Below are positions 7,677 through 62,456 of a DNA stretch of 64,000 nucleotides, piece after piece. The notes under the pieces were generated by a model. It made no database searches, was not told where the DNA came from, and worked only from the letters and a program-made list of their open reading frames with translations. Source of the stretch: Treponema brennaborense (GTDB taxonomy: Bacteria; Spirochaetota; Spirochaetia; Treponematales; Treponemataceae). Positions within the stretch are counted from its first letter, which is position 1, and each line of letters begins with the position of its first letter. The translations under genes and the position numbers were made by a program. The stretch lies in assembly GCA_023666275.1 (NCBI GenBank), contig JAMPCJ010000008.1, forward strand, positions 62,001 through 126,000, written 5' to 3'.

Positions 7677-8147
7677 ATGGGAAGAAAAAATAAATCGGTA
7701 AACCGTGCTGTTCTGCCTGATTCAAAATACAACAGTGTTGTTGTATCGAAATTTGTTTGCCGTATGATGCTTGACGGAAAAAAAGCTACTTGCATGCGCA
7801 TTGTTTATGATGCGATGGATAAACTGAAAGAAAAAATGGACAAAGATCCGCTTGAAGTTTTTTTGAAGGCGCTTGACAACGTAAAGCCGCTCGTTGAAGT
7901 GAAATCTCGGCGTGTCGGCGGTGCAACGTATCAGGTACCGATAGAAATTCGTGACACCCGCCGCGAAGCGCTGGCTATGCGCTGGATTATCGGTGCTGCG
8001 CGTTCGAAAAGCGGTCACGGTATGAGTGATTGTCTTGCTTCTGAGTTGATGGACGCTTTTAATAACACCGGTGCCGCTTTCAAAAAGAAAGAAGATACGC
8101 ATAAAATGGCAGAAGCGAATAAGGCTTTTGCACATTATCGCTGGTAG
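7677..8147 (+). CDS. rpsG: 30S ribosomal protein S7
   Basis: S7 nucleates assembly of the 30S head and contacts the E-site tRNA and mRNA. The product is 156 residues, the standard bacterial length, and has the family's core [14 protein letters not shown] and an N-terminal basic arm. It starts 14 nt after rpsL. In enteric bacteria S7 represses its own str operon; whether it does so here is unknown, but the next gene is preceded by a long structured leader rather than fusA. Confidence 0.97.
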
Positions 8148-8203
8148 TTTCGGAATCTTGGTTTTCACATCAGCGAATATCTGTCTGGTGTGAAAAACGT
8201 CTG

Positions 8204-8255
8204 CAAAACGGTGCGGAATTTTATTCTGCGCCGTTTTGTGTTTTCGGGCGTTTTT
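8204..8255 (+). terminator. Terminator after rpsG
   Basis: A 15-bp stem with two G-U pairs (8204-8218 with 8224-8238), 5-nt loop, then a T-rich tail (TGTTTT, later GTTTTTG). It ends the rpsL-rpsG transcript 56 nt after the stop. Confidence 0.7.
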
Positions 8256-8416
8256 GCAAAAATTACCGCACTTTTACGGATTGATGGTTGTTCATGTGCC
8301 GGAAATTAGCGCCGGCATTTTTGTCCGGCAATGATGCCGGATTGCGGCTGCTGCGGTTGTTTTTGCTGCATAGATGAAAATGCAAGATAAATTATATGCA
8401 AATAAATGAAAAGTGC

Positions 8417-8445
8417 TTGCATCTTTTTAATAAAAAATGTATAAG
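8417..8445 (+). promoter_or_regulatory. Strong promoter of tuf and the S10 cluster
   Basis: TTGCAT (8417-8422), 17-bp spacer made almost wholly of A and T, TATAAG (8440-8445). Predicted start near 8452, about 480 nt before tuf. The AT-rich context and optimal spacing fit a highly expressed translation operon. Confidence 0.75.
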
Positions 8446-8472
8446 TATATAAATTCTGTGAAAGTACAGAAG

Positions 8473-8857
8473 TATTTCTCTGAAAAGAGAGATATCAGGG
8501 TTCTTTAAGAGTCAGGCGGATTTGAAATCCGGTAAAATCGTAAAGGTTTGAGTGTTCAAATCAGGTTTTGCGGCCCTGAAAAATGCGGAAATTTGCCGTC
8601 GGCAGATTTCCATTAAGTCAGTTTTCAGGTGTTCTTGACATTTTGCTGCGGCAAAAGTCGACTCTTGGAAACCAGACCGATCATTAAATGCAGGTTTGAT
8701 GATGATAGGTGGTTTCGGTCAGGATAAATCGAAAATTATGGTTTATCTGTGCTAAAATGAACGGCAAAAGTCTGTTCCTGTCTATTATTCTCGATAATCA
8801 AACTTCATTTATTCGCAATGTGTGTAGTTGAATGTTCAGTGTAGAAACGTTGTTTCT
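8473..8857 (+). ncRNA. Long multibranched RNA leader upstream of tuf
   Basis: This stretch has no credible ORF but many nested helices. First a 9-bp hairpin with a GAAA tetraloop (8473-8494). Then a long-range helix, AAGAGTC (8507-8513) with GACTCTT (8660-8666), flanked by GGTT/AACC, which closes a multiloop holding hairpins at 8517-8531, 8545-8562, an 8-bp helix 8575-8582/8622-8629 enclosing an 11-bp hairpin (8587-8611), and a hairpin 8637-8659. Further hairpins follow at 8675-8720, 8723-8747, 8759-8777, 8784-8798 and 8843-8857. It may be a regulatory 5' leader or a separate small RNA. I see no tRNA, tmRNA, SRP or RNase P signatures. Family unknown. Confidence 0.6.
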
Positions 8858-8930
8858 TGGAATCTGTTGCATTCATATAAATACAACACAAGTATTCTTT
8901 TTGTGCCTTTAATCTGGTAAGGAGGATCAA

Positions 8931-10118
8931 ATGGCAAAGGAAAAGTTCGAAAGAACAAAACCGCACATGAACGTAGGTACCATTGGTCACGTTGACCACG
9001 GTAAAACTACACTTTCAGCGGCTATTACAATGCATTGTGCCAAAAAGTACGGTGACAAAGCTCTTAAGTATGATGAAATTGATAATGCTCCGGAAGAAAA
9101 AGCCCGTGGTATTACAATCAATACCCGCCACCTTGAATATCAGTCGGATAAACGCCATTATGCACATATTGACTGCCCCGGACACGCTGACTATATCAAA
9201 AACATGATTACCGGTGCGGCTCAGATGGATGGTGCAATTCTTGTTGTTTCTGCACCTGATTCTGTCATGCCTCAGACACGTGAGCACATTCTGCTTGCCC
9301 GTCAGGTCGGCGTTCCGAAGATTATTGTGTTCTTGAATAAAATAGATCTTCTTGACGATCCCGATCTTCTCGAACTCGTGGAAGAAGAAGTTCGTGATGT
9401 TCTTGAATCTTACGGTTATCCGCGTGATACGCCGATTATCAAAGGTTCTGCTTTCAAAGCACTTGCAGATGGTGCTACAGCGGAAGACACAAAATGCATC
9501 GATGAACTGCTCACTACGATGGATACTTATTTTGATGATCCTGTTCGTGACAAAGATCTTCCGTTCCTTATGCCGATTGAAGACGTGTTTACTATTTCCG
9601 GACGCGGAACGGTAGTAACAGGACGTGTCGAACGCGGCGTTGTCAGCATGAATGATGAAGTGGAAATTGTCGGTATCAGACCGACTGCAAAATCTGTTGT
9701 TACCGGTATCGAAATGTTCCAGAAAACCTTGGATCAGGGAATCGCCGGCGATAACGTCGGTGTTCTGCTTCGCGGTATTGACAAAAAAGATGTCGAACGC
9801 GGACAGGTTCTTGCGAAACCGGGTTCTATCCATCCGCATACAAAATTCGAAGGACAGATTTATGTTCTTTCGAAGGAAGAAGGCGGACGTCATAGCCCGT
9901 TCTTTACAGGATATCGGCCGCAGTTCTATTTCAGAACTACCGATATTACAGGAACAATTGAACTGCCTGCCGGCGTAGATATGGTGAAGCCCGGCGATAA
10001 CACAAAAATTATCGGCGAGCTGATTCATCCTGTTGCAATGGATAAAGGTTTGAAATTTGCTATTCGTGAGGGCGGACGCACAATCGCTTCCGGTCAGGTA
10101 ACAGAGGTTATCGAATAG
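8931..10118 (+). CDS. tuf: Elongation factor Tu
   Basis: GTPase that delivers aminoacyl-tRNA to the ribosome. It follows a strong GGAGG. The 395 residues show G1 GHVDHGKT (19-26), the effector segment RGITINT, G3 DCPGH, and G4 NKID, followed by the two beta-barrel domains ending in [14 protein letters not shown]. Length is standard. It occupies the position directly before rpsJ, as in an str-S10 fusion, but fusA is missing. Codon use in this gene is strongly biased, as expected for a very highly expressed protein. Confidence 0.98.
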
Positions 10119-10132
10119 TTTTGAGTCGGAGT

Positions 10133-10170
10133 GTTTCCGGGTTTGGTTTTTCTGAATCCGGGAACGTTTT
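10133..10170 (+). terminator. Hairpin between tuf and rpsJ, possible partial terminator
   Basis: A 12-bp stem including G-U pairs (10133-10144 with 10154-10165), followed by GTTTTC. Position and short T-run suggest attenuation that lets tuf be made in excess over the ribosomal genes; this role is inference. Confidence 0.5.
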
Positions 10171-10182
10171 CTTGGAGGAAAA

Positions 10183-10491
10183 ATGGCAGCTGAAAAGATT
10201 CGCGTCAGGCTTCGCGCATTTGATGTGGAACTGATCGATCAAAGTGCAAAAGCCATCGTGCAGACAGTGCAGCGTGCGGGTGCAAAGGTTTCGGGACCTG
10301 TTCCGCTTCCCACGAAAATCAGCAAAGTGACGGTGTTGCGCTCTCCTCACGTTAATAAAAAGTCACGTGAGCAGTTTGAAATGCGTACGCATAAACGGCT
10401 GATTGATATTATCGAGCCTTCGTCGGATGTTATGGATTCGCTGATGAAGCTTGAACTGCCTGCCGGCGTTGATGTTGAAATAAAGCAGTAG
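10183..10491 (+). CDS. rpsJ: 30S ribosomal protein S10
   Basis: S10 of the 30S head; its family also acts with NusB in antitermination. 102 residues, standard length, starting after TTGGAGGAAAA. The conserved [14 protein letters not shown] start and the [20 protein letters not shown] loop segment are present. It is the first ribosomal gene of the S10 cluster, 64 nt behind tuf. Confidence 0.97.
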
Positions 10492-59705: not shown

Positions 59706-62456
59706 TTATCGTCCGCAGCATTGTTTGTATTTTTTCCCGGATCCGCACGGGCACGGTTCATTCCGTCCGACTTTCGGTGCCGTGCGCACTACGGTTACGC
59801 TTTGCCCCTGTCTTCGTGCGGACATGGGCGACGAATCCGCTTGTTTTTGTGCCGAAACGCCGCTGAATGATGCCGCCGCTTGATGCTGCGCATTTATCTG
59901 CCGCGGCGCGCTGCGATTCCGCACGGCGGCATCTTCTCTGTTTGTTTGAATTTTTACGCGGAATACGCGCGCCGCGATTTCCAGGCGGATTGCATCAATC
60001 ATATCGTAAAAAATATTGAAGCCGTCGATTTTGTATTCCGTCAGCGGATTTTTCGAACCGTAAGAACGCAGATACACGGCTTCGCGGAGTGCTTCCAGCG
60101 TTTCAAGATGATCGAGCCATTTGCGGTCGATCGCCTGCACGTATTGATATCTGATGAACATATTCAAATTTTGTTTGCCCGCGAGCTGTTCTTTTTCGGC
60201 GATATCCGCGCGGAGCTTTTCCATAATCACGCTGTGCAGCTGTTCTTTCGGAACATCCGCTTCCAGTGTCAGCGCAAAATTATGCTTCAGTTCCGCGAGC
60301 AGATTGCCGAACGCAGCGTCGCCGTCTTTTCGGGATTCCGTTTTGTACGTGTCGAGCCAGGCGGAAACAGCGTCCTCGGCGGTGTTTATGATGCGCTCCG
60401 AAAGCTGTTCGTCAACGAGTATTTCATTGCGCTGATCATAGATAAAATTGCGCTGTTCGTTCAGCACGTCGTCGTAATCAAGCAGATGCTTTCGAATTTC
60501 AAAGTTGCGTTCTTCGACTTTTTTCTGCGCCTTCTCAATGCTGCGGTTCAGCATCGGATGAAAAATCGGTTCGCCGGGCTGCATGCCGATGCGCGTCATA
60601 ATCGCTTTCATGCGCTCGCCGCCGAAAAGACGCATCAAATCGTCGTCCATTGAAATGTAGAACTTGCTGCGTCCCGGATCGCCTTGCCGTCCCGAACGTC
60701 CGCGCAGCTGATTGTCGATGCGGCGGCTTTCGTGGCGCTCGGAACCGATTACATACAGTCCGCCGAGGTTTTTTACTTCTTCGTAATCTTTGAGCCAGTT
60801 TTCCCGTTCTGTTTTCAGCGCCGCCTGAAATTGTTCTTCCGAAGCTTCCGTGCCTGCCCGTTTGCGGGCGCGGAATTCCGGATTGCCGCCAAGTTTTATA
60901 TCCGTACCGCGGCCTGCCATATTCGTGGCAATTGTTACCGCCCCTTTTGCGCCGGCTTCTGCGATAATAAGTGCTTCCCGCGCATGATTTTTGGCGTTGA
61001 GCACTTCATGCCGCACGCCGCGGCGGGTAAGCAGCGCGGAAAGATGTTCGGATTTTTCTATAGAAACGGTGCCCACGAGAATAGGCTGCCCTTTTTTATG
61101 GCACGCTTCTATTTCGCTGCAAATTGCGTTCCATTTGTCGGTTTCATTTAAATATACTTCGTCGCATTCATCCGTGCGGGCAACCGGTTTGTTGGTCGGA
61201 ATGACGGTTACGTCCAGATGATAGATTTTTTCGAATTCGACGGCTTCCGTTTCCGCGGTTCCGGTCATTCCGGACAGCTTTTCATACATGCGGAAAAAAT
61301 TCTGAAAAGTGATAGTCGCAAGCGTTCTGTTGCGCTGTGCGATTTTTATATGTTCTTTCGCTTCTATCGCCTGATGCAGACCGTCCCCGTAGCGGCGCCC
61401 TTCGAGAATGCGTCCGGTGAATTCGTCTACGATCTGCACCTGTCCGTCTTTTACGACATAATCCACGTCTGTTTTGTATAATTGATGCGCCCGCACCGCC
61501 TGCGTAAAATAATGAATATATTCGAAATTTTCTTCATCGAACAGGCTGCCGGATATGAGATTCCGGTTTTGCAGAATAGATTCGATTTTCAGCATTCCCG
61601 CATCGGTAAACGATACGCGGCGGCTTTTTTCGTCCAATTTGTAGTCGCCGATAACTTCTTCGCCTTGTGTTTCGTCGGGATAGTCGTTTGTTCCTGGCTT
61701 TTTCCGCACTTCTTCAAGCTGACCGACGTATTTATCGACTTCATGGAATTTATGCGTATCGTCTTCGCCTTGTCCCGATATGATAAGCGGCGTGCGTGCT
61801 TCGTCGATAAGGATGGAATCTATTTCGTCGACGATGCAGAATGCAAATCCGCGCTGAACTTTTTGCTCCGCGGATATTTGCATGTTGTCCCGCAGATAAT
61901 CGAAACCGAATTCGTTGTTTGTGCCGTAGGTGATGTCGCAGTTGTAGGCTGCTCTGCGCGCTGCGTTGTCCATATTCGAAAGTATTGTGCCGGTGGAAAC
62001 GCCGAGATACGCGTATACCGGACGCATCCATTCCGCGTCGCGTTCCGCAAGGTAATCGTTGACGGTAACGATATGAACGCCTTTGCCCGAAAGGCTGTTC
62101 AAATACGCGGCGGCAACGCACATAAGCGTTTTGCCTTCGCCTGTTTTCATTTCGACGATTTTTCCTTGATTCAAAACAAGCGAGCCTATAATCTGCACGT
62201 CAAATGCGCGTTCGCCGAGGACTCGCTTTGCGGCTTCGCGCGCGAGGGCAAATGCTTTCGGGAGAATATCGTCGAGCGAAGCGCCGTTTTTCAATTGTTC
62301 CTTGAATGTTTCTGTCTGTTTCGGAAAATCTTCCTGGGCGAGCGCCGCTGCCCAGGGTTCTTCTTTATTTACTTTTTCGACAAGCGGTTTCAGCTGTTTA
62401 ATGTCGCGTTCGTTTTTTGTACCGAAAAATATTTTCAAAATGGAATCTAATAACAT
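59706..62456 (-). CDS. secA: Preprotein translocase ATPase SecA
   Basis: Motor that drives proteins through SecYEG. 916 residues from [15 protein letters not shown]. Walker [29 protein letters not shown], helicase motif [10 protein letters not shown], and the C-terminal zinc tail [15 protein letters not shown] that binds SecB or ribosomes. No Shine-Dalgarno lies before the ATG and a promoter is immediately adjacent, so the mRNA may be leaderless. Confidence 0.97.

Follow-up and report, generated by a model that had tools for sequence, protein, structure and literature searches.

The tuf gene of the spirochaete Treponema brennaborense is preceded by a large structured leader RNA. Its core hairpin precedes tuf in about a dozen spirochaete families, so that the leader very probably belongs to the control of ribosome making, as an element not yet described. 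The leader was analyzed within a window of 64,000 nucleotides (the whole stretch of DNA studied, positions 62,001 to 126,000 of contig JAMPCJ010000008.1), and its features are collected in Table 1. As in the leaders of ribosomal-protein operons, a conserved 5′ RNA structure and confinement to one operon, here tuf–rpsJ (S10), were both found. From these sequence comparisons we infer, with a probability of about 0.55, a cis-acting, protein-sensing leader of this operon that would adjust the synthesis of EF-Tu and of the S10-operon proteins to the free ribosomal protein; the likeliest ligand would be S10 through a BoxA motif, or another ribosomal protein of the operon bound on the hairpin that we call C. 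We commit ourselves to protein sensing only at that figure because no conserved terminator, no occlusion of the Shine-Dalgarno (SD) and no rRNA mimic were found.

In the window, two long genes (rpoB and rpoC from their size and position) are followed by rpsL, rpsG, tuf, rpsJ, rplC and rplD. The rpsG gene ends at 8147, leaving a gap of 783 nt before tuf. Terminator-like hairpins lie between rpsG and promoter P1, at 8200-8260 (a scan found 5 in the region for 0.7 expected), and suggest that the str operon ends upstream of the start of the tuf leader. The first-pass annotation had placed a strong promoter ahead of some 480 nt. The promoter is indeed present, about 475 nt from tuf, and its position shows the consensus TTGaa-17-tgTATAaat in the aligned family, but in this genome it is only of moderate quality and a strict promoter scan missed it, with a score under the cut-off. 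In locus L064 and its relatives, a consensus-like TTGAAA-17-TATAAT lies about 65 nt ahead of tuf, overlapping the 3′ domain of the leader in some genera; it is a possible second tuf promoter, unconvincing in the window itself. The gap between tuf and rpsJ (10119-10182) contains an imperfect hairpin (GUUUCCGGGUUU...AAUCCGGGAAC) with UUUUCUU after it, which could attenuate transcription from tuf into the S10 genes. Another treponeme genome (G110, contigs C61 and C23) gave two EF-Tu matches, one of them at a contig end, corresponding either to a second tuf or to an assembly artefact.

Table 1. Features of the tuf leader and its surroundings (positions in the window)
Feature	Position	Strand	Details and basis
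Promoter P1	8417-8445	+	-35 TTGCAT 8417-8422, 17 nt, -10 TATAAG 8440-8445; TG precedes the -10
tuf leader RNA	8452-8930	+	start deduced from the -10; fold z and homology in nearly all Treponemataceae tested
Variable 5′ hairpin, GAAA loop	8473-8494	+	stem 8473-8481/8486-8494, loop 8482-8485; MFE; sequence not kept in relatives
BoxA-like motif GTTCTTTAAGA	8500-8510	+	candidate NusB–S10 (NusE) site; exact match to GYTCTTTAANA
Four-way junction	8511-8639	+	covariation of helix P1, P2, P3 and P4a; P4 weaker
Helix P1 (closing)	8511-8516/8634-8639	+	GUCAGG/CUUGAC; family form GUCAgg/ucUGAC
Arm P2	8517-8522/8526-8531	+	covariation
Arm P3	8532-8539/8564-8571	+	apical stem 8546-8551/8556-8561; covariation
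P3 internal loop, conserved	8540-8545/8562-8563	+	GUAAAG/CA
Arm P4	8575-8582/8622-8629	+	weaker support
P4a	8587-8597/8601-8611	+	GUC triloop here, GUY triloop in the family; covariation
Hairpin C	8667-8716	+	CCAGACC 8672-8678, stem 8680-8688/8695-8703, GGUGG 8708-8712; class-wide core
Hairpin D	8723-8747	+	stem 8723-8730/8740-8747; treponeme loop begins GAA and ends AU, conserved
3′ domain	8821-8890	+	UGUGU 8821-8825/ACACA 8886-8890; GAAUG 8830-8834/CAUUC 8870-8874; alignment by eye
Small hairpin adjoining the SD	8905-8918	+	GCC 8905-8907/GGU 8916-8918
SD of tuf, AAGGAGG	8919-8925	+	sequence
tuf (EF-Tu)	8931-10118	+	ATG at 8931; first gene behind the leader
rpsJ (S10 = NusE)	10183-10491	+	second operon gene; as query, found behind tuf in other families

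The RNA from 8456 to 8930 folds with a minimum free energy (MFE) of -142.3 kcal/mol, against a mean of -111.2 kcal/mol for dinucleotide shuffles, none of which (0 of 100) equalled it (z = -5.46). A large structured RNA had been proposed at 8473-8857, a span that by itself reaches a z of -5.35 against shuffles. That RNA is real, most of its helices being backed by compensatory changes, and larger than proposed: the span falls within a leader running from about 8452 to 8930, but its end at 8857 cuts the 3′ domain. The GAAA-capped stem that had been pointed out is there as well, as the 5′ hairpin that varies among relatives.

For comparison, DNA upstream of tuf was taken from the 102 of 118 genomes of the family in which EF-Tu was found. 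When rpsG is the gene next to it, the spacer before tuf usually measures 500-700 nt; gaps of comparable length are present in many genomes without rpsG at that place, and homology to the leader was detected with nhmmer in nearly all Treponemataceae regions tested. From 5′ to 3′, the leader of this family consists of the variable hairpin, GGGUUCUUUgAGA, the four-way junction, hairpins C and D, the 3′ domain and the hairpin adjoining the SD. Absence of covariation and lack of conservation in relatives were both looked for and neither was encountered, the helices covarying and the leader being conserved. The alignment was a plain MAFFT one and the covariation statistics carry no correction for phylogeny.

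When all pairs of columns were scanned, the helices of the junction scored 3.6 (P4a), 3.5 (P3), 2.5 (P2) and 1.95 (helix P1), values uncorrected for phylogeny, compared with 0.95 at most when the columns of the junction domain were shuffled. Arm P4, with 0.87, does not rise above the shuffles, although several kinds of pair occur in it and complementarity is maintained. The closed multiloop of the first-pass annotation exists, but its MFE drawing was partly wrong, since the covarying closing helix is helix P1. The MFE structure pairs 8499-8513, the conserved GGGUUCUUU strand, with 8660-8673, whereas covariation gives no partner for GGGUUCUUU, and for the BoxA strand GUUCUUUAAGA no covarying partner appeared in the scan.

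Hairpin D shows the best covariation of the whole leader (6.43 in the same scan), and hairpin C scored 2.3, with column shuffles of the junction domain at or below 0.95. In both hairpins together, 94.4% of the cells are paired against 81.4% when shuffled, and 13 of the 18 pairs changed on both sides; the slid controls of this test argue against an artefact of relatedness in the covariation. Hairpin C, which has a 2-nt bulge, follows the consensus CCARACC, R, a stem, a terminal loop, the stem again, an inner loop and GGUGG. All of 55 sequences share CCARAC and GGUGG without a change, part of them having been chosen by a pattern holding those letters, and identical letters were found in the model matches from new families, chosen without that pattern.

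Downstream, the outer helix of the 3′ domain is only at background in the pair scan. The small hairpin adjoining the SD takes the forms GCCGG/CCGGC, GUCGG/CCGAC, GCCGA/UCGGC and ACC/GGU in relatives, and its class-wide counterpart, UUGUGA/UCACAA, covaries, as do two more helices downstream of hairpin C in the class-wide leaders. Several families (L275-L293) show a conserved three-helix domain (UCCAG/CUGGA, GCUGU/GCAGC and GUCG/CGAC, with GACCUCUGGAUCCUUCC) about 30-120 nt past hairpin C; hairpin D may derive from a domain of this form. Conserved pairing of the SD was not found in treponeme leaders, where SD/anti-SD complementarity equals that of shuffles. Occlusion of the SD by CU-rich segments was considered and rejected, the pairing being inconsistent in treponemes and in slight excess in other families. 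No conserved terminator was found between leader and tuf in the leaders compared.

The first-pass annotation had also proposed a model search across spirochaetes. Model R3, built on hairpin C, matches the family of the window, Treponemataceae (f1), its sister family (f5), f13 and a further eleven families in Spirochaetia, making 13 families beyond Treponemataceae. In all 20 loci inspected, from 11 families (f5, f13 and nine of the eleven others, f57 and f64 being left out), tuf and then S10 follow hairpin C; the order is rpsL–rpsG–hairpin–tuf–rpsJ, or the hairpin stands immediately ahead of tuf–rpsJ. In f5, the rpsG–tuf spacers that hold the core hairpin can be as little as 159 nt long, several of them without an obvious promoter of their own. 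When 84,980 genomes were searched with a DNA pattern, the 48 stretches obtained came without exception from spirochaete records. EF-Tu is encoded 78-271 nt downstream in 43 of them; in the other five (L191, L193, L200, L210 and L216) the stretch ends too close to the element for this to be seen. Of these five, four have rpsG upstream, and the neighbours in L216 are uninformative. Among the matches listed from 390 genomes of the phylum, none at E <= 0.003 fell outside class Spirochaetia. Nothing credible was obtained from f3 and f4, two families belonging to the same order. Weak model matches away from tuf (L155, L157, L159, L160, L265 and L266), with no tuf or ribosomal-protein neighbour, were discarded as chance. 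Since every locus seen has tuf and the S10 gene side by side, the linkage does not separate one from the other as the target.

With the model of the 5′ part, R2 (BoxA, P2 and P3), most of the Treponemataceae genomes tested yielded a single strong match each; matches elsewhere were all weak. The reduced treponeme genome G019, of 1.1 Mb, keeps hairpin C, and the BoxA domain is absent from it. Hairpin C and the SD hairpin are older than the BoxA domain and common to class Spirochaetia, and BoxA with the four-way junction is a Treponemataceae addition to that older leader.

BoxA is the binding site of NusB with S10 (NusE). The motif of the leader conforms exactly to GYTCTTTAANA, a gamma-proteobacterial consensus (PMC5725501) for which the whole window contains 2 matches against 0.26 expected. 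It lies outside the covarying helices and is conserved in relatives, with CUUU invariant in 40 of them and the form G[TC]TCTTT[AG]A in 58 of 74 leaders; exceptions, lost or variant, are treponeme leaders L058, L073 and L089 and that of a reduced genome (L082). It is not class-wide, most families of the class being without BoxA. In their rRNA leaders the treponeme genomes often have a variant of BoxA (GUUCUUUGA, GGUCUUUGA, GAUCUUUGA or GAUAUUUGA), so that the BoxA of the tuf leader equals that of rrn in some genomes only: the core is identical in G138, GGUCUUUGA is present in both leaders of G002, and variants are found elsewhere. Treponeme rRNA leaders (L161-L257) also carry a near-invariant AGGGAAGG about 6-12 nt after the BoxA-like motif, which looks like a second antitermination element. 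BoxA before rpsJ and NusE autoregulation in gamma-proteobacteria provide a precedent (PMC5725501), and, as the S10 gene sits right behind tuf, the BoxA is the best specific hint of ribosomal-protein sensing.

At the curated thresholds of Rfam 15, no match (riboswitches, T-box, 6S, RNase P, tmRNA or ribosomal-protein leaders) was obtained in the window, in Treponemataceae or in the class loci, and a permissive search returned chance-level matches only. No description of a tuf–S10 leader was found in the literature searched, an absence that is no proof of novelty, and the main text of a 26-genome survey that includes Spirochaetes names no tuf motif. The RNA family appears to be new, its kind, the ribosomal-protein-operon leader, being already known. 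Likeness to the rRNA site of the protein is common in such leaders, not obligatory, and none beyond chance was found here in comparisons with 23S and 16S. Mimicry of the L1 stalk was rejected: the f5 hairpin shares GGAUAGGUGG with 23S, the treponeme 23S differs there, and the leader does not follow it. Mimicry of 16S around CAAACCGGAGGAAGGUGG was also discarded, its co-occurrence being found in 6-29% of shuffled sequences and the match being absent from the 16S of this genome. A T-box resemblance (GGUGGUACCG) is limited to some treponemes and has no Rfam match.

In the protein-sensing leader that we propose, transcription would start at promoter P1, and the BoxA near the 5′ end would recruit NusB and S10 (NusE), the product of the second gene, the polymerase being modified according to the free S10. 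Hairpin C, whose bulged CCARACC/GGUGG helix is invariant, would be the feedback site for an operon product (S10 or another ribosomal protein of the S10 operon, e.g., L4). Binding would affect either the passage of the polymerase along the untranslated leader or the initiation of tuf, where the conserved small hairpin adjoins the SD. A ribosomal-protein-sensing leader had been suggested in the first-pass annotation; its leader part is well supported by strong covariation, a single strong match per genome, the tuf–S10 linkage, the class-wide hairpin and the lack of an Rfam match, and the sensing is plausible. Its most extended form, a class-wide feedback of S10 (NusE) on tuf and on its own operon through two sites, the ancestral bulged hairpin and a treponeme BoxA and four-way junction linking ribosomal-protein supply to Nus-modified transcription, is a tentative idea about which we are doubtful.

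The leader could instead serve the survival of polymerase and mRNA over a long untranslated stretch, through BoxA antitermination and structural stabilisation and with no feedback ligand. A BoxA placed soon after the start of transcription, which rRNA leaders also have, and the lack of a conserved terminator or SD switch fit this explanation, but it is unlikely, as the class-wide invariant bulged helix is more specific than stability requires and BoxA is missing from most families. Repression of tuf by its own product, with EF-Tu or its complex with tRNA bound to the leader, seems quite improbable to us: the element is followed first by tuf wherever this can be read, but S10 is behind tuf in all informative loci, so that linkage gives EF-Tu no preference, and the window yielded no tRNA-like gene. 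We give still less credit to a riboswitch that would sense a small molecule, for example a guanine nucleotide; the conserved internal loops and the four-way junction fit an aptamer, but most aptamers are more elaborate than the single simple hairpin that forms the class-wide core, and there is no Rfam riboswitch match and a single gene context.

A small RNA processed from the leader, also suggested before, is disfavoured by the f5 spacers of down to 159 nt, some of them without an obvious promoter, and by the lack of a conserved terminator before tuf. These same short spacers and the tuf linkage, unbroken in every informative case, make an independent small RNA gene, followed by a tuf with its own promoter, highly improbable, even with the TTGAAA-17-TATAAT of some genera (L064) in its favour.

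To our knowledge, no mechanism is known by which spirochaetes match the synthesis of EF-Tu and ribosomal proteins to need, and a single conserved site, kept even in the reduced G019, makes this control question directly testable; the leader would also add an RNA family lacking in Rfam. The S10-operon leader of Escherichia coli is controlled by L4, a mechanism described from E. coli and its relatives. Like it, the treponeme element is a structured 5′ leader of an operon with rpsJ, rplC and rplD, but here tuf heads the operon, the two structures are unrelated judging by Rfam, and no terminator or L4-type hairpin was recognised in the treponeme leader. With the BoxA genes of gamma-proteobacteria (suhB, and BoxA before rpsJ; PMC5725501) it shares the exact consensus and an operon encoding NusE/S10; those sites were sought at <=50 bp from the start codon, whereas the treponeme BoxA lies 431 nt upstream and is followed by the junction and the hairpins. 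The rpsJ motif of Peptostreptococcaceae (PMC11109978) is likewise a candidate ribosomal leader upstream of S10, but, according to its description, it belongs to three Firmicutes genera and lies directly before rpsJ. Finally, the rRNA leaders of the same treponemes also have a BoxA-like motif after the promoter, and differ in what comes after BoxA, which is AGGGAAGG in them and the four-way junction in the tuf leader.
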